This document shows, one piece after another, positions 4,798-26,500 of a stretch of 35,481 nucleotides of DNA. The position numbers were made by a program, and so were the translations under genes. Below the pieces are notes generated by a model. That model was not told the DNA's origin. It did not search any database and worked only from the letters and a program-made list of their open reading frames with translations. Origin of the DNA: Ruminococcus sp. (lineage in GTDB: Bacteria > Bacillota > Clostridia > Oscillospirales > Ruminococcaceae); NCBI GenBank assembly GCA_021770655.1, contig JAETQO010000038.1:1-35481 (forward strand), written 5' to 3'. The first letter of the stretch is position 1. Every line of letters begins with the position of its first letter.

Positions 4798-4856
4798 TAA
4801 AGAAACAAAAAGACCTGTCGGCAACAAGCCGCAGGCTGTGAAAATAAACCGTATGA

Positions 4857-9796: not shown

Positions 9797-10648
9797 TCAG
9801 CAATCGCTTTGAAGCTTTTCGGTGTCGAGCATATCCAGACTTCCCGAAAGGTCTGTAAGCTCCAACTGCAGGCAGAAGATATTTGCGGCGGTCGTGATAA
9901 AGTCCAGAATAACGTTCAGCGCAATAGCTATTGATACCGCATCGTCCGGAATTCCAAGCTGAGTCATCAATATCGTATAACAGACCAGCGCTCCGCCCGG
10001 AACAGGCGGTGCTGCAACAGCAAGCACAAACGCTATTACGAACAGCGTCACAAGCCACATCGGAGTAACGGCAACATCGAAAATCTCCGCCATGCAAAGC
10101 CCCATAATAAAAAACAGCACCTCCATGCCAGGCATAAATATTACCTGTCCGAGCGGCAGCCCGAAGCTTACTATCTTCTTGTCGATTCCGAGACGTTTTT
10201 CGCATGCTTCAACGTTTACTGCGTATGCGGCGGAAGACGACGCCGTTGTCACTGTTATCATAAATGTCGGAAGCACCTTTTTGACAAGCAGCAGCGGTGA
10301 CACTTTCCTTCTCAGGCAAACGAACACAGTGTACACAATCATTATAATCAACTCGCACATGACCCCAAGAATTACAGGTTTTACCGAACCCGATACGGTG
10401 TTAAAATTTCCGCTTATTATCATATTGAATATGCTGAAAAAAACGAAAATAGGGATAAACCCGCTTAAACATTTCATTATAAACTGAATGATGTAATTCG
10501 CCTGCTCCGTAAATTTCGCGACAGTCGCTGTCTTGTCGTTTAAGATAAGCATAGTCAGTCCGAAAATCACGGCAATGAAAATAATCTGCATAGGGTTTCC
10601 TTCCGTGAAAGGTGTGAGCAGGTTTGACGGAATGATATCAAGCAGCAT
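9797..10648 (-). CDS. SLC1-type dicarboxylate/amino-acid:cation symporter, C-terminal part
   Basis: These 283 residues are the second half of a DAACS-family (GltP/DctA-like) symporter: IIPSNLLTPFTEGNPMQIIF, then transport-core segments including TASSSAAYAVNVEACEKRLG (cf. family TxSSxATLP), FGLPLGQVIFMPG, and the late segment APPVPGGALVCYTILMTQLG with IALNVILDFITTAANI (cf. family D-x-x-x-T-x-x-N). It is in the same frame as the preceding gene half, separated by one TAG stop; the ATG at 10648 follows that stop directly. The two parts together make a normal-length symporter. It is either a pseudogene, a readthrough product or two subunits. It ends the long operon; no strong terminator is seen after it. 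Confidence 0.75.
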   Translation of the reverse strand: MLLDIIPSNLLTPFTEGNPMQIIFIAVIFGLTMLILNDKTATVAKFTEQANYIIQFIMKCLSGFIPIFVFFSIFNMIISGNFNTVSGSVKPVILGVMCELIIMIVYTVFVCLRRKVSPLLLVKKVLPTFMITVTTASSSAAYAVNVEACEKRLGIDKKIVSFGLPLGQVIFMPGMEVLFFIMGLCMAEIFDVAVTPMWLVTLFVIAFVLAVAAPPVPGGALVCYTILMTQLGIPDDAVSIAIALNVILDFITTAANIFCLQLELTDLSGSLDMLDTEKLQSDC

Positions 10649-11401
10649 CTAATACAGCTCCGAAAAATCAGCCCTGTCACCGCCGCCCGATGATACGGAG
10701 AAAAACGGTATCAAAACGAAGCAGAACAGAACAAGCAGCGACGCACTTATCAGCAAAAATCTTGCTATCATTCGCTTGCCTATTTTCCCGAAGGACACAA
10801 CGTCGCCGACACTGTAGATTCCCCACAAAACCGAAAAGAATATCAGCGGTCCCGAAACAGCCGACAACAATCCCATAAATGTTCCCGAAATCGGCGCGAT
10901 TATACTGTCGGACAAAAAAGTACACGTGCTCTCGGGGAACAGCGAGCACAAAAGCCCCGCCCCGACAGCAAGCGCTACTGAGGTCAGCAACCATATCACT
11001 GAGGAAACACGTTTTTTCTTTTCGGGAGTGAGCGTTATGATGTTACGACCGTTTTTGTAGCGATAGCTCGGAGCAAGCCCCATTGTCGACAGCATACCGC
11101 GAAGCACCTCGCTTGAATATTCGTCCTCGTCTGTACTTTCAATACCTGAGAACGGCTCAAAGCTCTCCCCTGCAATGCTTATCACCACGTGCGGGTTTGA
11201 AAAGCGTTTAACACAACGCAGCGTAAAATGCTCACTTTCACCGAAATGATCACGATAATTTAATAGTATCTCCTCAATCATCAACTTATGACGCAGGACA
11301 TTTTTCTTCTCTATTGAAGCACCCGTCAAAAAGCTCTCAATCGCCGTGCTTGCCTCGTCGATATTTGTACCCGTCAGTTGATATGTTTTCGGATTACCCA
11401 A
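10649..11401 (-). CDS. RsbW-like domain fused to N-terminal part of SLC1-type symporter
   Basis: This frame of 250 residues has two parts. Residues about 1-125 resemble a serine-kinase/anti-sigma HATPase fold: an N-box-like MIEEILLNYRDHFG, a weak G1 region AGESFEPF, and a terminal strand YKNGRNIITL. The glycine-rich lid is poor, so ATP binding is doubtful. From about 133 come the first membrane segments of an SLC1 symporter (SAVSGPLIFFSVLWGIYSVGD matches the family GP.iFf.iv.gi.siGd pattern). The frame ends in TAG at 10651-10649, immediately before the continuation. The start is a TTG at 11401, supported by GGAGG eight bases upstream; there is no ATG alternative. It follows a lipoprotein gene by 14 bases. 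Confidence 0.75.
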   Translation of the reverse strand: MGNPKTYQLTGTNIDEASTAIESFLTGASIEKKNVLRHKLMIEEILLNYRDHFGESEHFTLRCVKRFSNPHVVISIAGESFEPFSGIESTDEDEYSSEVLRGMLSTMGLAPSYRYKNGRNIITLTPEKKKRVSSVIWLLTSVALAVGAGLLCSLFPESTCTFLSDSIIAPISGTFMGLLSAVSGPLIFFSVLWGIYSVGDVVSFGKIGKRMIARFLLISASLLVLFCFVLIPFFSVSSGGGDRADFSELY

Positions 11402-11415
11402 TTTATTTTCCTCCG

Positions 11416-12132
11416 TTACTCGGTTATTCTTTTAATGAACTCCGCTGTCGTGTCCGTAAATTCGACCGTAATCTCAGCTTTGTCCGACACCAGAAATTCA
11501 GTCAAACCGTATTCGGTATTGTTATCAGCCCAATCGTAGGTGTACCCAAGACGAGTCCACGGGTAATATTCGTCATAGTACGAGGCGATGATATTACCGT
11601 CGAACCAATCCTTGAAATCCTCGTCAACGCTCTCTTCAAAAACGTTTGACATCTCACCCGATTCGGGGTCTGTCTGATAGGCAGGACGCATTACGTCATC
11701 GGGACTTACCCAAAAGCCCGTAACGGTGGTGTAATCGCAATCTGGAGGCAGTCCTATAAGCTGTTTCAGACGCATTTCCGGGCCCTTGCACTTTTTAATT
11801 TCAGACTTGTAAGACTCTATCTCTTTTTCAGTAAACATCCACACGGGACCCCACTCTACGGTTACGTTTTCTCCCTCCGGATAGCTGTCCGGGTAACTGT
11901 GCCACGTGCATAGCAAAACACGCCCGCTGTCATCCCACGTTGTCATTTTATCATCGGCGGTGAGGGACACGAGCGGGAGAACTTCGTCCTCGTCGGCAAA
12001 CGCCGCATCGTGTACCGCCGACATATAAAGAGCGTTCATATCCTCGTCCCTGCCTTTGCAACCCGTAAGTGCAGTTAAGGTCACGGAAGAAACCGCTAAA
12101 CTAAAACAAATTATCCTTATAATCCTTTTCAT
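11416..12132 (-). CDS. Lipoprotein of unknown function in transporter operon
   Basis: This 238-residue protein has a lipoprotein signal (MKRIIRIICFSLAV..., lipobox ALTGC at about residue 25). The mature part contains several Trp/Tyr-rich segments (VEWGPVWMFTEKEIESYK, FKDWFDGNIIASYYDEYY, RLGYTYDW) and no motif I recognise. AAGGTG precedes the ATG. It lies 13 bases after the ABC ATPase gene and 14 before the symporter half-gene, so it is surely co-transcribed. A role as accessory sensor or binding protein for one of the transporters is possible but not shown. Confidence 0.7.
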   Translation of the reverse strand: MKRIIRIICFSLAVSSVTLTALTGCKGRDEDMNALYMSAVHDAAFADEDEVLPLVSLTADDKMTTWDDSGRVLLCTWHSYPDSYPEGENVTVEWGPVWMFTEKEIESYKSEIKKCKGPEMRLKQLIGLPPDCDYTTVTGFWVSPDDVMRPAYQTDPESGEMSNVFEESVDEDFKDWFDGNIIASYYDEYYPWTRLGYTYDWADNNTEYGLTEFLVSDKAEITVEFTDTTAEFIKRITE

Positions 12133-12145
12133 AAATTCACCTTTG

Positions 12146-13222
12146 TTATATCTTCAGGACGAGAACATTTTCCTTTCCGTCATACTTATGCGAAATTGAT
12201 TTTGTAACGCCCCTCAAAGTTATTGCCGTGAGATCATCTTCATCATCGGGCAAGCCAAGCTTTTTGCCGCCGTAGCGGAAAATCATATCAACGGAGTCTT
12301 CCTTCTCGGAATACTCCACGTCCATATGGATTTCCCCGATATCCTTTTCGCAGACAAGCCGCTGCATGACAAGTTCCTCAAACACAAGCTGCGTTCTGTA
12401 TATCCGCCTTTGCGGCATCATCTGCTTACGCCCGAACTCCTCAAGACTCGAATTTATTGCGGGAAAGTCGAAATCGGACTTGTTGATAACAAGGCTCAGC
12501 ACCTTCAGCTGACGGATAAATCTGCGGGTTTTCTCATTTTTGGGATTCTCAAAAATTTGCTGCGGCGTGCCGTCCTCGTATATAATGCCCTCGTCCATAT
12601 AGAACACTCTGTTCGATACGTTTTTTGCAAAACTCATCTCGTGAGTGACGATAAGCATTGTAAGTCCGCTGTCCGCAAGCCGCTTGATAACGGAGAGAAC
12701 CTCACCGACCATGGTGGGATCGAGAGCGCTTGTCGGTTCATCAAAAAGCAGTATTTCCGGTTCCATCGTAAGTGCCCTCGCTATCGCTACACGCTGCTTT
12801 TGTCCGCCCGACAATTCATCAGGGTAGTTTTCCGCCTTTGACGCAAGACCAACGGTCTGCAGCAGCTCCATACCGCAGTCGTATGCTTCCTTTTTCGATT
12901 TTCGGAGCAAGTCCATAGGAGCACACATCAGATTTTCAATAATGCTCATATGCCCGAACAGATTAAAGCTTTGAAAGACCATGCCCATTTTCCGATGCAA
13001 TCCCGGCAGATCGGCTTTTTTCGCGCATATATCCACGCCGTCCACCAGAATCTCGCCGGAGGTTGGGGTTTCCAGACGATTGATGCAGCGCAGCAGCGTG
13101 CTTTTTCCCGTGCCTGAGGGTCCGATGATCGAGATCACATCACCTTTTTTTATTTCGGCGTTAACATTCTTAAGCGGCGTAATATTCGGATATTCTTTCC
13201 TGAGATTACGTATCACTATCAT
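12146..13222 (-). CDS. Amino-acid ABC transporter ATPase with RsbW-like C-terminal domain
   Basis: This 358-residue protein energises amino-acid import with the permease encoded upstream. Residues 1-240 form a GlnQ/PAAT-type ATPase: Walker A GPSGTGKST (34-42), Q-loop MGMVFQSFNLFGHM, signature LSGGQKQRV, Walker B ILLFDEPTSALDP, and the H-loop in TMLIVTHEM. Residues about 248-358 are an extra domain absent from ordinary GlnQ. Its INSSLEEFGR, N-box-like LVFEELVMQRL, strand VDMIFRYGG and terminal KENVLVLKI resemble the RsbW-type ATPase fold, with degenerate nucleotide motifs. ATG 13222 is chosen over an in-frame TTG one codon upstream because AGGAGG is best placed for it. The permease stop shares one base with this start. 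Confidence 0.88.
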   Translation of the reverse strand: MIVIRNLRKEYPNITPLKNVNAEIKKGDVISIIGPSGTGKSTLLRCINRLETPTSGEILVDGVDICAKKADLPGLHRKMGMVFQSFNLFGHMSIIENLMCAPMDLLRKSKKEAYDCGMELLQTVGLASKAENYPDELSGGQKQRVAIARALTMEPEILLFDEPTSALDPTMVGEVLSVIKRLADSGLTMLIVTHEMSFAKNVSNRVFYMDEGIIYEDGTPQQIFENPKNEKTRRFIRQLKVLSLVINKSDFDFPAINSSLEEFGRKQMMPQRRIYRTQLVFEELVMQRLVCEKDIGEIHMDVEYSEKEDSVDMIFRYGGKKLGLPDDEDDLTAITLRGVTKSISHKYDGKENVLVLKI

Positions 13223-14748
13223 CAATTTACCCTCCTTTTGTGCTTTTTCGGATCAAGCCGCACTTCAATTCTGCCAAGGAATAATGTAAGCAACCATGAG
13301 ATCACGAAATAGATCACCGCTGTGACGATAAGAGGGAAAAACGCCTCATATGTTCGGCTGCGTATAATGTCGGACGCCTTTGTGAGATCCTGTATGGTGA
13401 TATATCCAACGATAGACGTCATCTTCACAAGCGAGATGAATTCCCCCTTGATTACAGGCAGAAAATGCCTTGCCGCCTGCGGGAACACTACCTTGAAGAA
13501 GCTTTGTCTACTCGTATAACCAAGCGCCAGTGCCGCTTCGTTTTGTCCCTTGTCAACGGATTCTATGCCCATACGCATCATTTCGGACACGTAGGCTGAG
13601 AAATTCACTGCGAACCCGATAACAGCCACAACAACAGGCGATATATCGCTTTTTCCGAATACTACATAATAAAGGATCATCAAGAAAACCAGAATTGGAG
13701 TTCCCTGCATAATCCGGATATACACGGCGGCTATACCGCGGAGCGCCTTATTGCGACAGCGTCTGAGCATACACACTCCGAAACCAAGCACAGCTCCCGC
13801 CAGTCCTGAGCAAACCGAGATAAGCACCGTAAGTCCCAGTCCCGACAGCAGCATTTTCCAGCGGCTTTCTTTGATAAAGTTTTTATAAAAGCTATCTTTC
13901 AGATTTTCAAGAAATCCGGACTTTTCCCCTGCGGCGGCACTGTCCGCCACCATTACGACCACTCCGCCCTCATAATCGGCGTCCGAAAAATAAACGCTTT
14001 GGGCACGTTCCTCGGTGACGGTGATACAGCACGCCGCCAAATCTGCCTTTTCCGCAGTAATTGCAGGAATTACAGCCGCAAAATCCACATCGGACATTTC
14101 AAGCCCGTAGCCGTTTCTTTTGCAGAATTCGCACAGTATATCGACATCATAGCCGACCAGTTGCCCGTCCTTTACATATACGAACGGCGCCGAACCGCTG
14201 GTTCCCGTAAAGTGAAGAGTTCCGGACTGTCCTGTCGTATCGGGGTAGGTGATACTTTTGGCAGTATCGTCGTCGCCGAACCATCTGTCCTCAATTTCCT
14301 TTATTGTTCCGTCCTCACGTATTTCAGACAGAAACTTATTGAAGCTGTCACGCAATGCGGCGCCCTTTTCAGTTTTCGGGAACGCAAAGGCATAGCTCTC
14401 ATGACTGATGTATTCGTCAAGGTAACGTATACCGCCCTGTTCACTGCATAGCATACGCGCAAGAGGTTCGTCAACGAGAAACGCCGATATTTTCCCCTGC
14501 TTCACTGCGACAGTCATATCCGCAAAGGATTCGTAATATTTCTTTTGTGCATTTTCTATGCATTCGTCCGTCATTACATCAAAGGTTGAGCCGGTCTGCA
14601 CGCCTATGTCGCACCCGTTAAGCTGGGATATTTCATTTACACCCTCAGCATTGCCGATGTCGTTCGATGCCGAACAGCCGCATAAGGAAATCGCAATAAG
14701 AACCGACAGTGCCAAAAAGCACAAAATTCTCTTTATAGCTATTTTCAT
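13222..14748 (-). CDS. Amino-acid ABC transporter: lipoprotein binding domain fused to permease
   Basis: This 508-residue protein combines the solute receptor and membrane pore of a polar amino-acid importer. A lipoprotein signal (lipobox SLCGC, about residue 25) is followed by SBP_bac_3 sequence in unusual order: lobe-2-like GCDIGVQTGSTFDV, ending in EIREDGTIKEIEDRWFG (about 38-170), and only then lobe-1-like FVYVKDGQLVGYDVDIL with AACCITVTEERAQSVYFSDA (about 175-270). The permease domain (about 290-500) has several membrane segments and the EAA-like loop EAALALGYTSRQSFFKVVFP. No second complete binding protein is present. It is 14 bases after the RsbW-like gene. The substrate is unclear. 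Confidence 0.85.
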   Translation of the reverse strand: MKIAIKRILCFLALSVLIAISLCGCSASNDIGNAEGVNEISQLNGCDIGVQTGSTFDVMTDECIENAQKKYYESFADMTVAVKQGKISAFLVDEPLARMLCSEQGGIRYLDEYISHESYAFAFPKTEKGAALRDSFNKFLSEIREDGTIKEIEDRWFGDDDTAKSITYPDTTGQSGTLHFTGTSGSAPFVYVKDGQLVGYDVDILCEFCKRNGYGLEMSDVDFAAVIPAITAEKADLAACCITVTEERAQSVYFSDADYEGGVVVMVADSAAAGEKSGFLENLKDSFYKNFIKESRWKMLLSGLGLTVLISVCSGLAGAVLGFGVCMLRRCRNKALRGIAAVYIRIMQGTPILVFLMILYYVVFGKSDISPVVVAVIGFAVNFSAYVSEMMRMGIESVDKGQNEAALALGYTSRQSFFKVVFPQAARHFLPVIKGEFISLVKMTSIVGYITIQDLTKASDIIRSRTYEAFFPLIVTAVIYFVISWLLTLFLGRIEVRLDPKKHKRRVN

Positions 14749-14762
14749 TCTCGGAGTTCCTC

Positions 14763-15170
14763 TTATATATTCTTCCTGATTTTTAAGATATTCTGCCCGT
14801 TCTTGTATTCGTACGAAATGTCGTCCATGGATTTTTTTACCATATAAATTCCCAAACCGCCTATTTCCCGTTCCTCGGCGGACAGCGTGATGTCGGGATC
14901 GGAATTTGCGAGCGGATCATAGGGTACACCGTTATCAATAAAGGTTATCACGACAGCAAGCGGGTTTTCTGTGACCTCAACACGCACGGTCGCCGCACCG
15001 ACCTCGGGATTGTACGCATAATTTGCAATATTCCCGAACAGCTCATCTATCGCTATATCCACCTGCATCTGCGTTTTTACCGGACAGTCGAGCTGCTCCA
15101 GTTGCTCGTCCACAAATGCGGTCACGACAGCGACGTTGTCAATGGTCGCGTCAATGGTAAGCTCTTTCAT
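14763..15170 (-). CDS. RsbW/SpoIIAB-like serine kinase (anti-sigma-type ATPase)
   Basis: This 135-residue protein is a stand-alone HATPase of the RsbW family. The N-box is IAIDELFGNIANYAY, G1 is FIDNGVPYDP and G2 is GGLGIYMVKKSMDDISYEY. All ATP-site motifs look intact, unlike the transporter-fused versions nearby. By family knowledge it would phosphorylate a STAS protein, here most likely the one at 23717-24013, and may bind a sigma factor or another client. I chose ATG 15170, one base after the phosphatase stop, because GGAGG overlaps the end of that gene. No sigma factor gene is seen in the window. Confidence 0.88.
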   Translation of the reverse strand: MKELTIDATIDNVAVVTAFVDEQLEQLDCPVKTQMQVDIAIDELFGNIANYAYNPEVGAATVRVEVTENPLAVVITFIDNGVPYDPLANSDPDITLSAEEREIGGLGIYMVKKSMDDISYEYKNGQNILKIRKNI

Positions 15171-15171
15171 T

Positions 15172-17139
15172 TCAAACCTCCATTCTCGCCTTGTACTCAA
15201 GGCACAGCATAGTGATATCGTCAAACTGGGGCGCTTCTCCCACAAAGCCGTCGATATCCTCTTTAATTTTCGGCAGCAGCTCGGTGGGTGAAAGATATGA
15301 ATACCGTCCGAGCGTTTCGGTCAGTCTGTCCATTCCGTAAAGTTCGTTATTTGCGTTCGTAGCCTCGGTAACGCCGTCGGTATACTGGAATATTTTATCG
15401 CCGACCTCCAATTGCATTTCACCGCACTTATAGTGCATACCTTCCATGCCAGCAAGAACGAACCCCGCACGTATTTTATAAGGCTCAAATTTTCCGTCCT
15501 TCTTGCAGATGTATGGAATTTCATGCCCTGCGTTTACAAAACGAAAATTACCGTTTACAAGATCGAGAACTCCCTCGAACGCCGTAATGAACAGCCCTTC
15601 GCTGTTGGACTCGCACAGCAGATCATTCACCTCGGTAAACACCTCACCCAGATCCTTATCAGGCTGAGTGTGATCCTTTATCAGCGTTTTGCCTATTACC
15701 ATAAACAGAGCTGCGGGAACACCCTTTCCCGACACGTCCGCCACAACTATCGCCAGATGACGCTCGTCTACCATAAAGAAATCGTAAAAATCACCGCCCA
15801 CCTCTTTGGCGGGGTTCATGGTAGCGTAAATATCCAACTCGTTTCGCTCGGGAAATGCCGGAAATATGCGGGGGAGCATATCGGCCTGTATCTGCGTCGC
15901 CACATTAAGCTCCGCTCCGATACGTTCCTTTTCCGCCGTAACTGTGCGGATATTCAGGACATATTTTTCAATATCTCCCATCATTCGATTAAAATCGTGT
16001 GCCAACTCGCCGATCTCGTCCTTTGTACGTTCCTGTATAAAATTGCACATTTCCTTGAGTTTTTTATTGTCATTGTCTCCCAGGTGATCCTGCCCTGCAA
16101 ACTCACCCACCAATTCCGAAATTTTTTCTATGGGCAAGGTGATCCTGCTTTCAACATACCAAAGTGCAAGTATCGTCACACCGAAAATAATATTAATAGC
16201 AATCCCGACTACCAGATATATATGATTTACAAGAGTAAGCCTTGGGATCTCACCGTTCATTGTCATTGATGTATATGTCGCTTGGAAAACAAACGCAATG
16301 AACACAACCGCCGTAATCAAGAATCCTACGGTGACCTTCGCCTTAATTGAAAACTTCGCCTTCTTTTTTACCGTCATATCTATATCCGACGTAAAAGGAC
16401 GGCAGATATAAATAATAAGCATTAACATAAACACGATCATCATTGGCAGAGTAATATTCGGCTTCATTTCGTTGTCTACGAATTTTGAAAGGCAGAAATA
16501 TCCGATACCGACAGCCGATATAACATAAGGCACGGCGGAGGATATTTTCAGAAAAATCTTCCGGATATGAGTTCTTTCCTTCTTTTTGGGAAAACAAGGA
16601 GTCACCTTCGAGTTGGCAAGTATTGACAGCAAAGGTACTCCAAGGATCATTGCAAAGTCAAAATTATTGAAAAACAGCAGCGGAGCATTTTCGCCCGAAG
16701 AACCAAAGCCCGCCGTTTCAAAAATAAGCATAAGCAGTATTGTCACAAGCAGCGAATTGATAAAAATGACAAAGATAAACTTAATTACGTCCTTCATACT
16801 GCTCAGATTTGGGGAATTTACCTTTCCCTTTGAATTAAACTCCGTATACCACATACGGTACGGCAGGTATGCAAACAGAAAATTCGCAATAAATCCCGTT
16901 ACACATATAAAAAGATTGCTTCCGCCGAGTATATCGGAAATGAGATTTCCTATCGAAATGCCAAGTGCGGCGGGAAGCCCAAACAGTATCCCCAATACCG
17001 GAGGAACAACATTTGCGGGACGTATCTCGGTAACGCCGGGTACAAGCGAAAAAAGATATTTAAAAGGCATGGAAACCGAAAAAAATATCGCCGCACTGAT
17101 AAACATTCTTCTTACAAACGTTAGTATTTCTTTCTTCAT
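15172..17139 (-). CDS. Membrane PP2C phosphatase (SpoIIE/RsbU type) with HAMP
   Basis: This 655-residue protein probably dephosphorylates the STAS protein in response to a membrane signal. Residues 1-220 hold several membrane helices; VPPVLGILFGLPAALGISIG followed by NLISDILGG resembles the transport-type fold of QueT/ECF S components more than a usual sensor. Further helices (about 225-320) lead to a HAMP-like segment (about 325-385) and a coiled coil (TAEKERIGAELNVATQIQAD). The PP2C domain (about 410-650) has NPAKEVGGDFYDFF, VVADVSGKGVPAALFM and GDKIFQYTDGVTEATN, with the metal-binding Asp residues present. An AAGGA site precedes ATG 17139, and the upstream MATE gene ends 10 bases before. 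Confidence 0.9.
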   Translation of the reverse strand: MKKEILTFVRRMFISAAIFFSVSMPFKYLFSLVPGVTEIRPANVVPPVLGILFGLPAALGISIGNLISDILGGSNLFICVTGFIANFLFAYLPYRMWYTEFNSKGKVNSPNLSSMKDVIKFIFVIFINSLLVTILLMLIFETAGFGSSGENAPLLFFNNFDFAMILGVPLLSILANSKVTPCFPKKKERTHIRKIFLKISSAVPYVISAVGIGYFCLSKFVDNEMKPNITLPMMIVFMLMLIIYICRPFTSDIDMTVKKKAKFSIKAKVTVGFLITAVVFIAFVFQATYTSMTMNGEIPRLTLVNHIYLVVGIAINIIFGVTILALWYVESRITLPIEKISELVGEFAGQDHLGDNDNKKLKEMCNFIQERTKDEIGELAHDFNRMMGDIEKYVLNIRTVTAEKERIGAELNVATQIQADMLPRIFPAFPERNELDIYATMNPAKEVGGDFYDFFMVDERHLAIVVADVSGKGVPAALFMVIGKTLIKDHTQPDKDLGEVFTEVNDLLCESNSEGLFITAFEGVLDLVNGNFRFVNAGHEIPYICKKDGKFEPYKIRAGFVLAGMEGMHYKCGEMQLEVGDKIFQYTDGVTEATNANNELYGMDRLTETLGRYSYLSPTELLPKIKEDIDGFVGEAPQFDDITMLCLEYKARMEV

Positions 17140-17149
17140 TTCCTTATCC

Positions 17150-18904
17150 TCACAATACTATTCTGAAATTGTTAAAACCAATGGTTTGTATATAGTCGTA
17201 CTCTTTCGCAACGTTTTTTACAATCCCGATCCCAAGCAGATTAAAGGATTCCTCCTCTGCCGCCTCCAAGGCGGAGCCGGCAGTCTTGGCCGTCGGATCA
17301 AATTCGATAAAGTCGTCCCTTATTCGTATCACAATTTCACCGTCTGTCAGCCGTTCGATTTTCACGTCAACATTATATTTTCTGCTGTCGTTTTTTGACA
17401 TCTGCATTGTGTTGACTACCATTTCTTCCATACATATAGAAATGTAATATGATATTTTCGGAGAAAAATCATACTCATCTCCGAGTTTCTCCACCTCGTT
17501 AAGAAGGCTGTGAACATACTCCTCTTCCAAAGGAATTATTTTAGTAAAAATGATCGTCGAAGAGTCCTCGTCGTGTTTTTCTTTGACTGCCGCTTTTTTG
17601 AACAGCAGCCAGAAAAACATGGTCGCAATGTCCGAAGCCACCAGCCCGAAATATACGGAATAAACGGAATAATTTATCAAACGGACAATAACGCTTATAA
17701 GCGCAATCGGAAAAACGCAGTTATTCATAATTATAATAAGCATGGAGAACATTACGTGCCCCGTACATCTGTAATATGCATTCAAAAACGCAATGACAGC
17801 GGCACTTACGCAATACACAGCCTGTATTCTCACGGAGGTGATAACCGTTTTGGCAAGTTCTCCCTCTCCCGCACCAAGAATTTCGCATATCTGAGGAGCA
17901 AACAATTCCAGAATGAACGTAAGGCATATTCCTATGAGGATAATGGTACGGATTGCGATTTGGGACGTTGTTTTAATATTTTCTTTCTCGCCCTCGCCAA
18001 AGTATATACCGAGCATTGGCTGGACAGCACCCGTAACGCCGTCAAACAGAGCGTATATAAATGTGATTATGTATTTTATGACAGCATATGACGCAACTCC
18101 GTCAACGCCGCCGCACTTTATAAGCGTTCGGTTTATAAATGACGTCAGCAATATCTGAAGCAAAAATATCATAGCCATAGGCGATCCGGGCGATACTATT
18201 GATTTCAGAAGCTTTAAAGAAATTTTTGTTTTTACGATTTTGAATACCGAGGATTTTCTCAGCAAAACCGTTCCCGCAGCAATTGCCGACAGCGTTTGTG
18301 CCAGAACGGACGCTGCGGCTATGCCGGACAAACCTATTTTTAATACCGCCGCAAAAAACACATCGCCAATAAGATTGATCGTTCCGGCGACAATTACGAT
18401 AATCATTGAAACCTTCGGTTTGCTGTCGTTTCTGAGAAAGGTATTTAAAATCGGCGAAAAAACCATGGGAATAAATCCTATCAATATGGGACGAATATAT
18501 CTTTCGGCGTTATCCTGCAAGGCAGGGTCGGTCGCTCCGCAAAGATACATTAGCTCTTTCGTGAATATATTCCCGAGGATCATGACTATCAAGGAAACAA
18601 AAAGTGCAAAAAAACAAGCGTTTGTGAAGATCTCGCCGCATATCTTTTTATTTCCTTTTCCGAGCTGCGTTGATATAAATATTGCCGCTCCCGTACCCAA
18701 AAGCGCGCTGAGAATATTTATCACAAGAATTAGGGGAAGTGCAATGCTCATTGCGGACAGAGCTTCTTTTCCGAGAAAATGTCCCACTATCGCCATATCC
18801 GTCAATGAAATAACCGCCAGCGATACCGATGAAATCATTGTTGGAAAAAGAAACCTGTAAAAGGTTTTCCTAACGATGTCACGGCGCAGAGTATCTTCAT
18901 TCAT
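17150..18904 (-). CDS. MATE transporter fused to RsbW-like ATPase domain
   Basis: This 584-residue protein has an N-terminal MATE exporter (about 1-445, twelve membrane segments; ISLTDMAIVGHFLGKEALSA and the second-half GAVQPMLGIYFGEGEKENIK are typical). Residues about 450-584 form a cytosolic HATPase domain: N-box YYISICMEEMVVNTMQMS, G1 RIRDDFIEFDP, G2 NLLGIGIVKNVAKEYDY, and terminal NNFRIVL. ATP motifs are fairly well kept. Fusion of a drug/metabolite exporter to an anti-sigma-like kinase domain is unusual. It suggests that the exporter itself is a client or kinase of the partner-switching module encoded around it. The ribosome site before ATG 18904 (AAAGGA) is somewhat distant. Confidence 0.88.
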   Translation of the reverse strand: MNEDTLRRDIVRKTFYRFLFPTMISSVSLAVISLTDMAIVGHFLGKEALSAMSIALPLILVINILSALLGTGAAIFISTQLGKGNKKICGEIFTNACFFALFVSLIVMILGNIFTKELMYLCGATDPALQDNAERYIRPILIGFIPMVFSPILNTFLRNDSKPKVSMIIVIVAGTINLIGDVFFAAVLKIGLSGIAAASVLAQTLSAIAAGTVLLRKSSVFKIVKTKISLKLLKSIVSPGSPMAMIFLLQILLTSFINRTLIKCGGVDGVASYAVIKYIITFIYALFDGVTGAVQPMLGIYFGEGEKENIKTTSQIAIRTIILIGICLTFILELFAPQICEILGAGEGELAKTVITSVRIQAVYCVSAAVIAFLNAYYRCTGHVMFSMLIIIMNNCVFPIALISVIVRLINYSVYSVYFGLVASDIATMFFWLLFKKAAVKEKHDEDSSTIIFTKIIPLEEEYVHSLLNEVEKLGDEYDFSPKISYYISICMEEMVVNTMQMSKNDSRKYNVDVKIERLTDGEIVIRIRDDFIEFDPTAKTAGSALEAAEEESFNLLGIGIVKNVAKEYDYIQTIGFNNFRIVL

Positions 18905-18934
18905 CAGAAAGCAGATCCTTTCTTTGGTTCTAAT

Positions 18935-20230
18935 TCACAAGGAGGGAGAGATTTCCTTAAGGTAACACCGCACAACTATTGTGTGCGGATAACGCAGAAA
19001 ATTTTTCGTTAGATTGTATAGAAACGACGCAGGAATACTTGTGTCTTTCAAGGAGTTTCTGTGCAAGATAAGTCCGTCCTCATCAATAAGCGTTTTAAAT
19101 TCCTCCGACGCCCCCAAAAGATGCATTCCGTCCGAAAGATGGTGAGTACACATTATTTCCGCAAGCATAAGCATCTCCAGAAAAACAAGATCGATCATTC
19201 GGTCGGTTAGACTGATAACATTTTTTCGGAAGAAGTTTATGGGCATTCCGTCGGCAAACAGAAAAATATGCTTTTTCTTTCCGTTTCCGATAAGCCCGTA
19301 AAGCGTATAATACTCCTGTTTTTCTTCGGTAATCAGCCTTATGCCGCTGATATTTTTCTTTCCCAGTGCAATCTCAATAAGCAGGATAAATTCATAATTT
19401 TTTGATGACGCACTGGCAAGATAAAGATTTTCTGCCTCTCCGTCCATAAACGCCCGAAGCATCTCTTCCGAAAAAATACTGCTGCCCACGCACCCAATAA
19501 GCACGGTATCCTTTCGGAACATATTCGGAGAAACATCTGAAAACACTTTGCACATATCTCTTTCAGCGGTTTTTCTTATCGTTTCATCGATGTCAAAAAC
19601 CGAAATATTGCAGGAATAAGAACCGAGTGATTTAAAAACGCTTCTTCCAACGATTCCGTACCCTACTATAAGCACGTTCCCAAAATTGAGAAAGGTATTC
19701 GCAGAGTATAAGAAAAGGCTTAACTCTTCAACAATACGCTGGCCTATGAAAATTGATTCAAGGTTCATTTTGACCTTTGAACGGGCAACGCTTGCACATG
19801 GAAAGCCAAGCCCGTTTTTATTACTATGAGACAGCGTTCTGCGTGTTCCCGACGTCGTCTGTTCAACTACGCCCAATACACTGCCCTCAAGGCTCGGATA
19901 TTTGCGGACAGCACGAACATACACAGGAAGAAAATAGCCGCCGTCCTCAATAACGATTATTTTTTTCCCGTTTTCGACCGCAGGAATTACAGCGTCCGAC
20001 AGCACACGTTCTATCTGCTCCTCTACAAGCTCCTGAAACGAGCGATACGTTTTATATTCCGCAGCCCCGTCATAAATGACCGGAATAAAAAAGACCTTGC
20101 CGAAAACATTCTCCAGGAAGGTATTAAAGCGGTAAGAATTGTCAACATCGTGATTGATATGTAAAAGGACAATATCTTCGTGCTTTTTTAAATTCTGAGT
20201 ATATTCCCGTAAAAGCGGCATATTGTTCAT
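18935..20230 (-). CDS. S-adenosylhomocysteinase-like NAD protein, C-terminus replaced by MITE
   Basis: This 431-residue frame resembles S-adenosylhomocysteine hydrolase: IVIEDGGYFLPVYV, GVVEQTTSGTRRTLS (cf. EETTTGVHR), and an NAD-binding Rossmann site VLIVGYGIVGRSVFKSLG, then VLIGCVGSSIFSEEMLRAF. At the catalytic Lys/Asp region of true enzymes it has SVARSKVKMN, so the usual residues seem replaced and hydrolase activity is doubtful. From about residue 388 the reading frame enters MITE copy 4, and the last ~43 residues (LHRNSLKDTSIPASF... to the stop) are element- or flank-encoded. The native 3' end is lost, so the protein may be inactive or may keep its NAD core. GGAGGACAG precedes ATG 20230. 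The role in the operon is unknown. Confidence 0.7.
   Translation of the reverse strand: MNNMPLLREYTQNLKKHEDIVLLHINHDVDNSYRFNTFLENVFGKVFFIPVIYDGAAEYKTYRSFQELVEEQIERVLSDAVIPAVENGKKIIVIEDGGYFLPVYVRAVRKYPSLEGSVLGVVEQTTSGTRRTLSHSNKNGLGFPCASVARSKVKMNLESIFIGQRIVEELSLFLYSANTFLNFGNVLIVGYGIVGRSVFKSLGSYSCNISVFDIDETIRKTAERDMCKVFSDVSPNMFRKDTVLIGCVGSSIFSEEMLRAFMDGEAENLYLASASSKNYEFILLIEIALGKKNISGIRLITEEKQEYYTLYGLIGNGKKKHIFLFADGMPINFFRKNVISLTDRMIDLVFLEMLMLAEIMCTHHLSDGMHLLGASEEFKTLIDEDGLILHRNSLKDTSIPASFLYNLTKNFLRYPHTIVVRCYLKEISPSL
18960..19074 (-). repeat. MITE-like element, copy 4 (truncated, inside a gene)
   Basis: The sequence starts AGGTAACACCGCACAACTA after TA (18958-18959) and follows the complete copies up to GTGCAAGATAA at ~19074, where it changes abruptly to the SAHH-like gene. 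The ~60 bases of the other end, with its inverted repeat, are missing. It is in the same orientation as copy 2, and its minus strand is read in frame as the tail of the SAHH-like gene. Confidence 0.85.
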
Positions 20231-20356
20231 ATCTGTCCTCCAATATAGAATTATTTGTTATGTTTATATTGCCACTCAGTACCGACAGTGCACACGGCAG
20301 AAACTCTTTACAGAACGCCTTTTTCAGAAATAGTTCGTTTTGTCTGAACTCAATTT

Positions 20357-21775
20357 TTACTCCGATTTTCCTTTTGATTTTGCACACTTCACGGTATACA
20401 GTGCAAAGCACGCCGCCGCAAAGCATATGCCTATTGGGTACGCTATCGCCGAGGATATTTTAAACCCCTCGTCCGCCATTAAAATGTAAGTGCAGGAAAC
20501 CGCCGACATAAATGCCGCAGGCAGCGCGCACATCATCGAGTACCAACGTTTTTCCGCGTTGCGGACAAGGTACATTGCTGCTGCCCAGAGCGTTATCATC
20601 GCGAGCGTCTGATTACTCCACGAAAAATATCTCCATACAACGTCAAAATCAAGCTGAGTAAGCACCGCACCTACAACAAGCAGCGGTATCGTCACGGAAA
20701 TACGTTTGGAAAGCTTTGACTGATCGATCCTGAACCAGTCGGCGATAGTGAGCCGTGCACTTCTGAATGCGGTATCGCCTGATGAAACGGGACAGACCAC
20801 TACCCCGATTATCGCCATTGCACCGCCCGCTATTCCAAGCAGCGACACGGAAATATCATACACAACTCCCGATTGCCCCATCTCCGCAAGCGCATTCTGC
20901 AATCCGCCCGTTGCGCCGTAGAATGCCACTCCCGCCGCAGCCCACACAAGTGCGATAACGCTTTCGGAAATCATTGCTCCGTAAAAAACGCGTCTGCCGT
21001 GCTTTTCGGACTTTATGCACCGAGCCATCATCGGAGACTGCGTTGCATGAAATCCCGAAATAGCGCCGCATGCAACGGTTATGAACATAAACGGAAACAC
21101 AGGCTTGTCACTGGGGTGGAGGTTTGCAAGCTGAAGCTCCGGAATATGATAACCGCCGACGCCAAGACCTATCATAATTCCCACAGCCATAACGATCAAC
21201 ACACCGCCGAATATCGGATAAAGCTTTCCTATCAGCTTATCGATCGGCAGAAGCGTGGCAAGAAAATAATAAACAAGTATCACCGCAACCCAGAAAAGCG
21301 TGTTCGCCCAATCCGGAGTAAGCCTTGCCAGAAGTGCGGCAGGACTTGTGGTAAACACCGCGCCCACCAGTATCAACAGTATCACGGAAAACACACGCAT
21401 GATCTGTTTTGCGGCTTTTCCGAGATACTTTCCCACGATCTCCGAAACGGACACTCCGTTCATTCTCACCGAGATCATTCCGCTCATATAGTCGTGCACC
21501 GCCCCGCCGAGTATCGAGCCGAACACTATCCACAAAAAAACTACGGGACCGAATACCGCACCCATAAGCGCACCGAAAATAGGTCCGGTACCTGCGATAT
21601 TCAGCAGCTGCACCAAAAAGACGCGCCAAGTTTTCATCGGGATATAGTCCACACCGTCGGGGTGCTCTATTGCAGGAGTAGGACGGTCATCGGGGCGGAA
21701 AACGTGCTCGACAAGCTTTCCATACAGAAAATATCCCGCCAAAAGAATTATTATAGCAACTATAAAGGTTATCAT
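20357..21775 (-). CDS. cstA: CstA-family carbon-starvation transporter
   Basis: This 472-residue, multi-spanning membrane protein belongs to the CstA/BtsT family, whose studied members import pyruvate or peptides. Family marks are the early AGTGPIFGALMGAVFGPVVF followed by GSILGGAVHDYMSGMISVR, the middle FHATQSPMMARC, and VVCPVSSGDTAFRSARL. It is shorter than E. coli CstA, like many Firmicute homologues. The start ATG 21775 abuts the TAA of the lipoprotein gene with GAGGG upstream. In other bacteria such transporters are controlled by LytTR-type two-component systems, and one is encoded divergently at 24266-26343. Confidence 0.9.
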   Translation of the reverse strand: MITFIVAIIILLAGYFLYGKLVEHVFRPDDRPTPAIEHPDGVDYIPMKTWRVFLVQLLNIAGTGPIFGALMGAVFGPVVFLWIVFGSILGGAVHDYMSGMISVRMNGVSVSEIVGKYLGKAAKQIMRVFSVILLILVGAVFTTSPAALLARLTPDWANTLFWVAVILVYYFLATLLPIDKLIGKLYPIFGGVLIVMAVGIMIGLGVGGYHIPELQLANLHPSDKPVFPFMFITVACGAISGFHATQSPMMARCIKSEKHGRRVFYGAMISESVIALVWAAAGVAFYGATGGLQNALAEMGQSGVVYDISVSLLGIAGGAMAIIGVVVCPVSSGDTAFRSARLTIADWFRIDQSKLSKRISVTIPLLVVGAVLTQLDFDVVWRYFSWSNQTLAMITLWAAAMYLVRNAEKRWYSMMCALPAAFMSAVSCTYILMADEGFKISSAIAYPIGICFAAACFALYTVKCAKSKGKSE

Positions 21776-22198
21776 TTAATTACTACCCTCGCGCAGTTCA
21801 AATGCCGCACTGCTTTCCTGTATCAGAACGGACTTCAGATTAAGCTCTTTCTTCGCTGTATCGGCAATATCGTCAACGTCGCTTTTTTCCATATACACCA
21901 AGAAGTAAACAAGGGTGACGTTTTCAACGGATTTTCCGTTCTCGGTATATGCACCGTAGGTGGTATACTCGGTGTAGCCCAGACCTTTGTCGGTGATGAT
22001 CTTGCGGATAGCTTTGCTGGCGTCCTCGGTCGGCACCTCTTGCTTATTCGTTTCGGCATCGTTCAAACCGAAAGATACCATATAATATTTTTCCGTGCCG
22101 CTTTCCGTTTCACTTTTCTGACACCCCGAAAACAGTACAACAAGTGCCAGCGTCGTCAGTATTATCGTCAGTGTTAAAAATATTTTTAATTTTTTCAT
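21776..22198 (-). CDS. Small lipoprotein of unknown function
   Basis: This 140-residue protein has a clear lipoprotein signal: MKKLKIFLTLTIILTTLALV and a lipobox LFSGC at about residue 24. The mature domain, about 110 residues, has an alternating pattern (YYMVSFGLNDAETN, TEYTTYGAYTENGKSVENVT, LVYFLVYMEKSDVDDIADTAK) suggestive of a small alpha/beta sensor-like fold, possibly similar to DUF3574-type proteins; I cannot name it with confidence. ATG 22198 is chosen because a signal peptide starts there and GAGGACGAAGG precedes it; the frame stays open for 61 more codons upstream. Its stop abuts the CstA start, so the two products may work together. Confidence 0.7.
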   Translation of the reverse strand: MKKLKIFLTLTIILTTLALVVLFSGCQKSETESGTEKYYMVSFGLNDAETNKQEVPTEDASKAIRKIITDKGLGYTEYTTYGAYTENGKSVENVTLVYFLVYMEKSDVDDIADTAKKELNLKSVLIQESSAAFELREGSN

Positions 22199-22386
22199 TC
22201 CTTCGTCCTCGCATTCTGTTTTAATCAATAAGCTTACGCAGCTTTTTAAGCTCCGACATGAGGCTGCTTTACATAGCTGTATGAAATATCTGTCATACTC
22301 GCTATCTCTTTCAGAGCTGCGCTGTTTTATTTGTTCGTCAAACCAACCCATTATTACGTTTTTGCATTCTGTTCCGATCAATAAAT
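22199..22386 (-). pseudogene. Gene remnants between acyltransferase-like and lipoprotein genes
   Basis: This 188-base stretch is read open on the minus strand and contains MGWFDEQIKQR (from 22351), which from memory resembles the start of NHLM/NHLP-type bacteriocin export ATPases. A second frame gives ALKEIASMTDISYSYVKQ, helix-turn-helix-like, ending in another frame as KKLRKLID and a stop. None has a ribosome site. A 28-base imperfect direct repeat containing GCATTCTGTT and ATCAATAA occurs at ~22203 and ~22358, framing the stretch. I read it as deletion debris; the identification is weak. Confidence 0.3.
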
Positions 22387-23685
22387 TCAGGGCAATTCAA
22401 GAGAAGCAATGTTTTTTACTCTGTAATTGCTGACGCTGTAGGACAGCCCCGCCTCGTTCAGCGTGTTCAAAAAGGCGTTTATGTATCTGTCGGTCCTCGT
22501 TACCTGATTGAGCGTAATATAGAACATATTGCCTATCGCGTTTATTTCAACAAGCAGGTTGCCGAAGAGCACGGTGTTCATTGACCTTACGAACCTGTTC
22601 ATCACGCCAAAATCGGTCTGACCCACATAGCTTACGTTATACGTATCCTTGCAGCCCTTGGTAAATATTCCTTCGCTGAGGCAGAATTTTCTCTTTTCCT
22701 CAACGGTTTTCAGCCGATCGACTTTTTCATAATACTCAAGCGTTTTTTTCATCTCAATGACCGAATTTTCCGGCTGGGACTGCAGCATTATCATTCCTCT
22801 TGTTATCGTTCCCAGCTTGTCGACCGGCATGTCGAGGTAACGCCGCTTGTAGCTGATATGCAGCGCCCTGCTTATCGAATGATATGCGTTGGGACAACCG
22901 ACGGCGTCTCTGAAATTACAGGCGACACCTGCCGAGAAAACATTTTCCTCACCGGGAAGCAGCGGAGCAAGCGCCTTAAACATAAACACGGCAACGATCG
23001 CCGCAGGGCTCGCGTCATTTGAGTGAACATATTTCATAAGTTCTCTCTGCTTCATGCTTATGCAATAATATCCGTCACCCTTAGGATCGGGGTCTTTCAC
23101 CGCATGTATGTAATCATCGGCAGGGAAATATCCCATTTCGGGCTTACTGTATAAGCTGAGATCGGATTCAGGCAGACTGTCTTTTGTCGGGAAATCAAAT
23201 TCTCCCGGAAAAAACTCCGAAACGGCGGTATCGTCCTTCTCGACACCGATCTCCTCGCCGTGTGTTCTGATGAGATACTGATACAGCACGGACTTTATAA
23301 AAGGTATATATCCCGCCGCATCGGTGATGCTGTGGCTTACGTTGAAATAGATCGTATCATTGGCGTAGTCTACATAATTAAGATGGTAATTGACCTCCTT
23401 TGAACCGAGCGGCGCCGCCGGAATTTTTGTTTTCATGACTGCGACGGGAAGCTCGTTCGGTATAAAAGCATAGCTTCCGTTTACATTTTTTACGCGAACA
23501 GAAAAATAAGGATAGCGTTTTATCGCCTCGTTTACCGCCTCGTATAAAACTTCCCCGCTGATATCCTCGGTCAACTCCAAGACAAATCTTATGTTCGTGT
23601 TTGCCGGCGTGCTGTCTCTCCTTTCATAGAGCAAATAGGTATCGGGCTTCATTATTTCGGTAAGCTCCGTTTCACTAAGCTTCAT
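22387..23685 (-). CDS. Condensation/acyltransferase-superfamily protein
   Basis: This 432-residue protein belongs to the CoA-dependent acyltransferase/condensation superfamily (wax-ester synthase, alcohol acetyltransferase, NRPS condensation). The catalytic HxxxDxxG motif is VSHSITDAAGY (about residues 118-128). The N-terminal half carries LEGLT-like strands (FVLELTEDISGEVLYEAVNE AIK region), and the C-terminal half a second lobe (NTVLFGNLLVEINAIGNMFY). No carrier-protein or adenylation gene is nearby. It lies in the partner-switching operon, 31 bases after the STAS gene. The substrate is unknown; transfer of an acyl group to a lipid or small molecule is the family expectation. ATG 23685 is chosen for the GGAGG before it. 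Confidence 0.75.
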   Translation of the reverse strand: MKLSETELTEIMKPDTYLLYERRDSTPANTNIRFVLELTEDISGEVLYEAVNEAIKRYPYFSVRVKNVNGSYAFIPNELPVAVMKTKIPAAPLGSKEVNYHLNYVDYANDTIYFNVSHSITDAAGYIPFIKSVLYQYLIRTHGEEIGVEKDDTAVSEFFPGEFDFPTKDSLPESDLSLYSKPEMGYFPADDYIHAVKDPDPKGDGYYCISMKQRELMKYVHSNDASPAAIVAVFMFKALAPLLPGEENVFSAGVACNFRDAVGCPNAYHSISRALHISYKRRYLDMPVDKLGTITRGMIMLQSQPENSVIEMKKTLEYYEKVDRLKTVEEKRKFCLSEGIFTKGCKDTYNVSYVGQTDFGVMNRFVRSMNTVLFGNLLVEINAIGNMFYITLNQVTRTDRYINAFLNTLNEAGLSYSVSNYRVKNIASLELP

Positions 23686-23716
23686 ATGCACCTCCATGTT
23701 TATTCAGTGTTATTCG

Positions 23717-24013
23717 TTATTCAATGGTGAGAATATCCACGAAGCCCGTCACCTCGAACACCTCGGAGATAACGTCGTTGACATTACGGATAACCATTTT
23801 CCCCTGCTTATTCATTACTTTCTGAGCCGCCAGCAATATACGAAGTCCCGCCGAGGAGAGATACTCCAGCTTTTCAAAGTCAAATATCAGCTCAGTGTTG
23901 TCCGCGATGCTCTGCTTCAATTCCGCTTCCAGCTGCGGTGCGGTTGTCGTGTCAAGTCTTCCCTCCAATGCGATGTTCAGAACTTTGCCCTCTGTGTTTT
24001 TAACGATATTCAT
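23717..24013 (-). CDS. STAS-domain anti-sigma factor antagonist (RsbV/SpoIIAA-like)
   Basis: This 98-residue protein is a single STAS domain. LEGRLDTTTAPQLEAEL is the first half, and FDFEKLEYLSSAGLRILLAA carries the usual phosphorylation site, with Ser54 (second Ser of LSSAG) the likely acceptor, aligning with RsbV Ser56. Family knowledge: unphosphorylated STAS binds the RsbW-like kinase and releases its client; the kinase phosphorylates it and a PP2C restores it. All three components are in this operon, which starts with this gene. ATG 24013 is chosen because GGAGG precedes it. Confidence 0.9.
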   Translation of the reverse strand: MNIVKNTEGKVLNIALEGRLDTTTAPQLEAELKQSIADNTELIFDFEKLEYLSSAGLRILLAAQKVMNKQGKMVIRNVNDVISEVFEVTGFVDILTIE

Positions 24014-24085
24014 ATATTTTACCTCCATAAATTATTGACTGTCGGTTTTCCCACCGTGAGCGGAAAACCAATAAAAAAGCATACT

Positions 24086-24157: not shown

Positions 24158-24187
24158 AAGTCTGTACATCGATTTAGTGTGCAAAAG

Positions 24188-24216
24188 TTGACAAATGGAC
24201 GCAAAAATGATAAAAT
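24188..24216 (+). promoter_or_regulatory. Sigma-70-type promoter of the two-component genes
   Basis: A perfect TTGACA (24188-24193) and TAAAAT (24211-24216) are 17 bases apart, ~50 bases upstream of the response-regulator start. Confidence 0.7.
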
Positions 24217-24265
24217 AATAAAATATAAACAGCAAATATATAATAATGAAGTTGGTGGTGTTTTA

Positions 24266-26343: not shown

Positions 26344-26457
26344 TCCTCTGCCAAGAAATTATTGAAAAAATTGTATAAAAACGCATACCCGGAAAGCTGA
26401 AGCGGCAAGGTGAGCATTTCAGTTTTATTATCAGTTTTCTATCTTATCTTGACACTG

Positions 26458-26463
26458 TATAAT
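26458..26463 (+). promoter_or_regulatory. Possible -10 of the AraC-type regulator gene
   Basis: A perfect TATAAT lies ~38 bases before the start codon. A TTGACA is only 2 bases upstream of TGTATAAT and cannot be its -35, and no other -35 is good, so this is a weak call. Confidence 0.35.
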
Positions 26464-26500
26464 TCTAATAAAGCTATTTACTTTGGAGATGACTCGAGTA

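Follow-up and report, generated by a model that had tools for sequence, protein, structure and literature searches.

What does a partner-switching module control when no sigma factor gene is encoded with it? The question is raised by a run of genes in a Ruminococcus sp. genome (assembly GCA_021770655.1), on a 35,481-nucleotide (nt) stretch of contig JAETQO010000038.1 (positions 1 to 35,481), referred to below as the window. Partner switching is mostly known as a form of transcription control. Here, the cluster genes from 24028 to 9797, all on the minus strand, encode a module of STAS protein, RsbW-type kinase and membrane phosphatase together with three types of transporter that bear RsbW-like domains. 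We consider it rather probable that the run encodes a partner-switching circuit with the membrane transporters, instead of a sigma factor, as its outputs, docking of the STAS protein gating them. A preliminary description of the run had taken the transporters for clients or parallel kinases of one phospho-switch; what it had observed is partly confirmed, and its interpretation partly supported, by the analysis below. The genes concerned are:

23717..24028, minus strand: STAS-domain antagonist (SpoIIAA/RsbV-like); Pfam STAS 54.6 bits (cut-off 22.6), TIGR00377 over its cut-off; motif YLSSAGLR
17150..18904, minus strand: MATE exporter with a C-terminal RsbW-like domain (about residues 450-584); MatE 131 bits in two stretches
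15172..17139, minus strand: membrane phosphatase with QueT-like, HAMP and SpoIIE-type PP2C parts; Pfam SpoIIE 151.5, QueT 36.7 (cut-off 33.7), HAMP 25.1 bits
14763..15170, minus strand: intact RsbW-type serine kinase; HATPase_c_2 70.3 bits (cut-off 27.4); open reading frame (ORF) from 15245, likely start ATG at 15170
13222..14748, minus strand: fusion of substrate-binding protein (SBP) and permease of a polar amino acid ABC importer; SBP_bac_3 97.8 and BPD_transp_1 87.2 bits, NCBIfam HEQRo_perm_3TM over its cut-off
12146..13225, minus strand: GlnQ-type ABC ATPase with a C-terminal RsbW-like domain (residues 240-359); ABC_tran 124.8 bits
10649..11401, minus strand: SLC1/SDF symporter, first piece, with an RsbW-like domain (about residues 1-132) and the first membrane segments; SDF 29.3 bits; ends at a TAG
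9797..10648, minus strand: SLC1/SDF symporter, second piece, in the same frame, with an ATG straight after the TAG; SDF 160.4 bits

RsbW-like domains on three kinds of transporter

The fused domain of the MATE exporter is recognized by Pfam, with residues 458-573 matching HATPase_c_2 at 31.5 bits, over the cut-off; for the C-terminal domain of the ABC ATPase (after about residue 240) and the N-terminal domain of the SLC1 symporter, no HATPase match was found in Pfam. Profiles built from relatives of the window proteins were compared with RsbW by profile-profile alignment (hhalign), and scored 99.5% for the MATE domain, 98.5% for the ABC domain (E = 1.9e-15) and 97.9% for the SLC1 domain (E = 5e-13); STAS, phosphatase, permease and lipoprotein profiles, used as negative controls against the same RsbW set, scored at most 0.6%. 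AlphaFold models of the ABC and SLC1 domains, with a mean predicted local distance difference test of 91.7 and 81.2, respectively, had SpoIIAB, UsfX and RsbW as their top Foldseek matches, at TM-scores mostly of 0.6-0.77 (by query length). The best PDB match of the ABC model was SpoIIAB (1tid, E = 5e-6), and the nine best PDB matches of the SLC1 model were anti-sigma factors, with histidine kinases and phytochromes among the weaker ones. Homology of all three fused domains to RsbW/SpoIIAB is thus supported by sequence profiles, as is, in the models, the predicted fold of the ABC and SLC1 domains (for the MATE domain, fold support comes from Pfam and hhalign). That the ABC and SLC1 extensions resemble HATPases by chance was rejected on the strength of these profile and fold comparisons with their negative controls. 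The HATPase domain of the exporter, the degenerate HATPase-like domain of the ABC ATPase and the N-terminal domain of the symporter, as the preliminary description had them, are all borne out.

These extensions fall outside existing family models: the NCBIfam matches of the MATE and ABC proteins stop before or near the start of the fused domain (for the ABC protein, among the best 25 of 189 matches). The fused ends of MATE, SLC1 and ABC proteins are, by their established topology, cytosolic. The ATPase, its SBP/permease partner and their profile matches (SBP_bac_3, a HEQRo-type permease, a GlnQ-type ATPase) are those of a polar amino acid ABC importer; the GlnQ equivalog model scores 293 bits against the window ATPase, below its cut-off of 379.

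Two further transporter kinds carry the domain, with one instance each: a xanthine/uracil-type (NCS2) permease with a C-terminal RsbW-like domain (profile E = 2e-5; Pfam HATPase_c_2 14.1 bits, below cut-off), encoded after a STAS gene at L156, and an EamA transporter encoded upstream of a phosphatase-RsbW gene at L129 (L numbers denote our loci and G numbers our genomes). As far as sequence tells, a single portable domain is carried by MATE, ABC, SLC1, NCS2 and EamA transporters, which makes at least five kinds. In a tree of 124 domains, which has few columns and several long branches and is weakly resolved, the RsbW, MATE and SLC1 domains each lie on one side of a branch (98/79, 85/74 and 99/90), and the ABC domains lie together except that the NCS2 domain, a long branch, is placed among them.

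The fused domains differ from the kinase in the residues that matter for catalysis. GHKL ATPases bind ATP through the Asp of the G1 box. In all 109 aligned RsbW sequences, the window kinase included, the N box has its Glu and Asn, the G1 box its Asp and Gly, and the G2 box its glycines; RsbW-picked loci came via N- and G2-box patterns, which favors intact motifs, and all N, G1 and G2 residues are also kept in 28/28 RsbW sequences found without motif patterns. The G1 Asp is kept in 43/57 MATE domains and in none of the ABC (0/30) or SLC1 (0/13) domains. The N-box Glu persists almost throughout (MATE 55/57, ABC 30/30, SLC1 12/13), the N-box Asn in 33/57, 4/30 and 3/13, respectively. In the ABC and SLC1 domains the G1 Gly (30/30 and 13/13) and the C-terminal Asn (25/30 and 13/13) are retained, and any given G2 glycine is kept in at most 1/30 and 2/13; in the MATE domains the three G2 glycines are kept in 3, 3 and 47 of 57. 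The window MATE domain retains the Glu, Asn, Asp and last G2 Gly. Judged by these motifs, the ABC and SLC1 domains lack the residue set of an active kinase, and since they are without the ATP-binding Asp and have lost nearly all G2 glycines, "clients" fits them better than "parallel kinases", the other half of the alternative first proposed; the MATE domains are less clear-cut.

All three module proteins, which the preliminary description had named, score well above their Pfam cut-offs, and together they have the make-up of a SpoIIAA/SpoIIAB/SpoIIE-type module: a STAS protein with its Ser, a GHKL kinase with its boxes and a PP2C phosphatase. The Ser in YLSSAGLR, presumed to be the phosphorylation site, is identical in 111/111 aligned STAS domains, and the closest named relatives of the window kinase belong to Lachnospiraceae and other Clostridia. 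Among ten phosphatase relatives scanned, QueT-like matches were below cut-off in two, a Cache-type sensor was over cut-off in three and below it in one, and four had neither; the input of the module thus seems to vary while the module stays. In the genome, a 2.66 Mb draft, we found STAS proteins, intact RsbW-type proteins and SpoIIE-family proteins, two of each. Of these, a STAS protein is SpoIIAA, an RsbW-type protein is SpoIIAB, and the SpoIIE-family protein outside the cluster is presumably SpoIIE, so that the cluster module looks like the genome's sole other such switch. That it might be the sporulation switch itself was rejected, as spoIIAA, spoIIAB and sigF form a separate operon on another contig.

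Module parts are also fused to one another and to other domains among the relatives. Phosphatase-RsbW fusions occur at L042, L060, L071 and L127, and at L200 and L202, which from frame length had first been taken for MATE fusions. A STAS domain is fused to an APH-type phosphotransferase/kinase domain at L064:2384-3580 and L101:3503-4690, with phosphatase and RsbW genes nearby in both, and L204:2355-3947 joins an N-terminal STAS domain to a C-terminal condensation domain of the non-ribosomal peptide synthetase (NRPS) type, adjoining a phosphatase, a second STAS gene, an NRPS and a MATE fusion. A conserved protein of about 190-215 amino acids (aa) is encoded near STAS and RsbW at L031, L033, L037, L038, L067, L076, L092 and L140; five were scanned (L031, L038, L076, L092, L140) and gave no Pfam match over cut-off, and most show a weak resemblance to the fused domains around the N-box.

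Recurrence of the fused transporters in other genomes

Loci picked by a fused transporter gene contained a STAS, RsbW or phosphatase gene within 8 kb in 22/49 cases, as compared with 0/20 control loci, which were chosen for an unfused MATE or ABC ATPase gene and come from the window's genus alone (Fisher p ~1e-4); within that genus the comparison stands at 12/29 versus 0/20 (p ~6e-4). Counted by fusion and outside the window, a module gene lies within 8 kb of 20/31 MATE, 10/22 ABC and 2/7 SLC1 fusions. The association at L041 was rejected as a hit, since this locus is an operon of spoIIA type that includes a SigF-like gene; L041 is among the misses in 22/49 and still among the 20/31. L074 and L075 are halves of one region, and joining them gives 21/48. 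Several of the 49 loci share one genome, and the family regions were chosen after ABC and SLC1 matches had been seen on one contig in four genomes and RsbW near L071. Only fetched and annotated loci entered as fusions: 25 of the 29 profile-match rows that reach the C-terminal domain were fetched, and six ABC-profile and seven SLC1-profile family rows are not among the loci. Some ABC- and SLC1-profile rows proved to be MATE-domain or RsbW matches instead (e.g., G094:C4:38530, G263:C135 and G048:C1:1312439).

Starting from the kinase gives a similar picture. The 80 named loci picked by RsbW contain STAS in 61 cases, a phosphatase in 53, and MATE, ABC and SLC1 fusions in 19, 7 and 5, respectively (two of the seven ABC fusions, at L140 and L156, are partial frames). 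At least one fused transporter is present in 25/80, and in 19/39 of the loci of 15 kb or more; two or more kinds occur in 7/80. Three of the RsbW records (L121, L129 and L167) are labelled Synergistaceae/Synergistales, which may be real or a binning error.

The densest case, in G048 from another genus, packs two SLC1, two ABC and one MATE fusion into about 28 kb (L074 and L075), along with STAS, adenosylhomocysteinase-like, phosphatase, RsbW and CstA genes. L077 is close to the window, with STAS, acyltransferase-like, MATE fusion, GH3, phosphatase, RsbW, SBP/permease, ABC fusion, lipoprotein, CstA and a second MATE fusion. At L054, L055, L084 and L091 the SBP/permease partner of the ABC fusion is about 1280-1295 aa long and has four binding-protein stretches.

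In family-level draws of genomes, the ABC-domain profile matched 20/297, the SLC1-domain profile 16/297 and the MATE-domain profile 18/119, some of these matches being RsbW or another of the fused domains. A draw across the phylum gave MATE-domain matches in 17/398 genomes. Outside the window genome, 11 of the matches lay in open frames of 574-638 aa; all were fetched, and nine of them are MATE fusions (seven genomes, four other families), each with a phosphatase gene within 6 kb (9/9). Repeated co-localization in many genera therefore supports the tie between transporters and module that had been proposed from the window.

Comparison with the genome's own SigF turned up no sigma-like ORF in the window, in agreement with the preliminary description, and hence no cognate sigma factor encoded with the module. 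The same SigF search over 142 loci (L174-L204 lie outside it) gave sigma-like ORFs in five: L001, which is the window genome's own spoIIA operon, L041 (spoIIA-type), L046, L152 and, weakly, L093. This rarity argues against the usual client being a linked sigma factor. The L152 cluster is arranged as STAS-NRPS-esterase-RsbW-phosphatase, and its sigma-like gene is possibly a sporulation sigma factor.

Other genes of the run and a possible cargo

The run also encodes five further proteins:

22387..23697, minus strand: acyltransferase-like protein with an HSITDAAG motif; relatives at L077 and L036, no Pfam or NCBIfam match
21776..22381, minus strand: small lipoprotein with a lipobox-like FSGC, true start probably near 22198; weak relatives at L084, L091 and L121
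20357..21775, minus strand: CstA-type peptide/pyruvate transporter; Pfam CstA 189.9 bits, no fused domain seen
18935..20230, minus strand: adenosylhomocysteinase-like protein; weak matches, all below cut-off
11416..12132, minus strand: second lipoprotein; relatives at L077 and L075 by profile match (E = 3e-111 and 2e-55)

The full order is STAS, acyltransferase-like, lipoprotein, CstA, adenosylhomocysteinase-like, MATE, phosphatase, RsbW, SBP/permease fusion, ABC ATPase, second lipoprotein and SLC1. Adjacent genes either overlap by a little or are separated by 0-30 bases; the two exceptions are a gap of 126 bases following CstA and one of about 190 preceding the first lipoprotein (assuming its start near 22198). 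Such spacing is what would be expected of an operon. Promoter-like sites (36, against a shuffled mean of 25.7, sd 4.9) and terminator-like sites (19, against 15.4, sd 3.7) are both slightly above expectation.

The acyltransferase-like protein aligns with NRPS condensation domains at 58% (hhalign, E = 1e-4), and could tentatively be placed in that superfamily. The adenosylhomocysteinase-like protein is probably NAD-binding; repeats were looked for in its gene, and nothing was evident. CstA recurs at L044, L070, L075, L076, L077, L101, L134 and L137, in the first six of these near STAS, RsbW or fusions; the acyltransferase-like gene recurs at L036, L077, L136 and L155; and relatives of the adenosylhomocysteinase-like gene adjoin STAS, MATE fusion and phosphatase genes at L074/L075, L101 (Blautia schinkii) and L197. 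Because these genes recur in the loci of relatives, counting them as further parts of the system, as had been suggested, is reasonable.

Next to the module or a MATE fusion, enzymes that form amides or esters are repeatedly encoded, namely GH3 (L077, L078, L082, L094, L099), NRPS-type proteins (L036, L071, L152, L204), a formyltransferase (L088) and a GNAT acetyltransferase (L195). Together with the condensation-like and acyltransferase genes, they suggest that amino acids are taken in and an amide- or peptide-type product is sent out. MATE fusions adjoin large genes at L036, L071, L039, L042 and L043; those of L036 and L071 are NRPS genes with a terminal reductase-type domain, an arrangement that we take to be reminiscent of gut peptide-aldehyde clusters.

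Outside the run, a LytTR response regulator, a GHKL histidine kinase and then an AraC-type regulator lie divergently, directly upstream of the cluster (24179-27376, plus strand). At 5232-7350 on the minus strand, a D12-class adenine DNA methyltransferase adjoins a protein with DUF6996, DUF6997 and DUF7226, perhaps as a restriction-modification pair. Residues 1-39 of a 77-aa ORF at 4691-4924 (plus strand) match residues 389-427 of the adenosylhomocysteinase-like protein (phmmer E = 9e-20), and may be a stray partial copy.

Transporters as candidate outputs of the switch

In the circuit that we favor, the RsbW-type kinase would phosphorylate the STAS protein, and the sensor phosphatase would take the phosphate off when its signal is present. 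Unphosphorylated STAS would dock on the transporter domains in competition with RsbW, opening or closing the transporters, and phosphorylated STAS would release them. Uptake (ABC, SLC1) and export (MATE) would then change in concert, with no need for new transcription. If the analogy with anti-sigma factors holds, each fused domain would be expected to keep the transporter that bears it in check, and STAS to lift that restraint. We read the fused domains as docking domains through which the phosphorylation state of STAS would gate transport, and one STAS protein would set both uptake and export.

Several observations weigh against this reading. The symporter of the window is divided by an in-frame TAG at 10649-10651 (minus strand), which the preliminary description had missed in treating it as a single gene. 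In eight aligned SDF relatives this position is taken by E, R, D, H, S or T, and the window copy is therefore either disrupted or produced as two parts; the seven relatives that have the N-terminal domain are each one intact protein of 529-555 aa. The position of the NMDGT motif of the SLC1/SDF family reads FMPGM in the window and is altered in L074 and L076 as well. Split by the TAG and changed at this motif, the window symporter does not present a complete SDF domain with NMDGT in one protein. In addition, the cargo is a guess, because the enzyme genes vary between loci. Other points lend weight to rival explanations. Asp and Asn are jointly kept in 33/57 MATE domains, the window's included, and judging from these residues some MATE domains may bind nucleotide. 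The fused domains might then be active kinases or nucleotide sensors, the transporter binding ATP and phosphorylating STAS or sensing energy in parallel to RsbW. The widely kept Glu, Asp and one G2 glycine of the MATE domains agree with this, as does the HATPase_c_2 match of the window exporter over its cut-off; however, each of the two other G2 glycines is kept by only three MATE domains, the G1 Asp is absent and G2 glycines are scarce in the ABC and SLC1 domains, and an intact kinase is encoded alongside; we regard this explanation as improbable.

RsbW and SpoIIAB form dimers, and the fused domains, being RsbW homologues whose genes often have the kinase gene nearby, could instead pair with RsbW itself, recruiting or titrating the kinase to the membrane rather than binding STAS, with the output perhaps elsewhere. 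Near the fused transporter, however, only STAS was found at L044, L072 and L073, and only STAS and the phosphatase at L198; STAS is moreover the simpler common docking partner for five unlike transporters, and we regard pairing with RsbW as unlikely. It might also be that the genes are only co-located: the module would control transcription by way of an unlinked sigma factor or some other target, and the domains on the transporters would be ligand-binding or relict. In favor of this, 27/49 fusion loci lack a module gene within 8 kb (4/49 fusion loci and 2/20 control loci are shorter than 10 kb, where partners could lie elsewhere; the rest are plain misses), and so do 5/7 SLC1 genes that were picked on their own. 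Action in trans is possible for partner switches, and at L152:12449-13228 a sigma-like gene (phmmer E = 2e-41 to SigF) lies about 0.6 kb behind the phosphatase gene. Nevertheless, module genes were found near none of the unfused controls, the association persists in four other families, sigma-like ORFs are rare, and the conserved Glu, Pro and Asn positions of the fused domains speak against relicts, so that mere co-location appears very unlikely.

If the transporters are the outputs, a broader and more tentative proposal can be made, which we hold possible without yet leaning toward it. In gut and rumen Bacillota, a largely kinase-dead docking domain on at least five transporter families (MATE, ABC, SLC1, NCS2 and EamA) could act as a switchboard, with one STAS phospho-switch setting amino acid uptake and product export jointly and post-translationally, along with the product-making enzymes. 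Should the fused domains dock STAS, partner switching would also be a fast, reversible gate on membrane transport across several transporter superfamilies of gut and rumen bacteria. Extensions now passed over by family models would gain testable functions, and the docking domain could perhaps be moved between transporters. Some of the exporters that bear the domain adjoin NRPS genes.

The cluster shares its STAS protein with a conserved Ser, intact GHKL kinase and SpoIIE-type PP2C phosphatase with the SpoIIAA-SpoIIAB-SpoIIE and RsbV-RsbW-RsbU/P switches of Bacillus; it differs from them in that no sigma factor was found and in the extra RsbW-fold domains on transporters, which in the ABC and SLC1 proteins are without the ATP-binding Asp. 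The same three-part logic with a non-sigma output is known from SiaABCD of Pseudomonas, SypA/SypE of Vibrio and the cyanobacterial icfG cluster. They are known to act on a cyclic-di-GMP synthase, biofilm or carbon metabolism, and not, as proposed for the window, on transporters with a kinase-like domain. The SiaB-SiaC complex (6kko) was among the Foldseek matches of the ABC and SLC1 domains, and the window phosphatase scores far below the cut-off of the SiaA model. Cyanobacterial kinases are treated in passages of PMC11863333.

STAS domains and transporters are brought together in other ways as well. MlaB, a STAS protein, sits on the ABC ATPase MlaF; the window STAS protein scores 20.1 bits with the MlaB model (cut-off 90). 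In SLC26/SulP transporters, according to passages of PMC8256260, a STAS domain is linked to the transporter. There the STAS domain is part of the transporter, whereas in the window STAS is a free protein and it is a kinase-side domain that the transporter carries; no SulP match was found in the 20 window proteins scanned, which sets the cluster apart from SLC26/SulP. Fusions of module parts, as at L042, L060, L071 and L127, are akin to Rv1364c-like RsbU-RsbW fusions, and the RsbU and RsbW domains of Rv1364c (PDB 3ke6) are among the Foldseek matches of the ABC domain. Rv1364c is not known to have a transporter part. Among the titles and abstract openings of the open-access papers listed (subscription papers and preprints lying outside this scope), we found no description of transporters bearing RsbW-like domains. 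Since its three module parts fit the family and a linked sigma factor was not found, the cluster is best described as a variant of partner switching, in which the new element is the RsbW-like domain carried by transporters.

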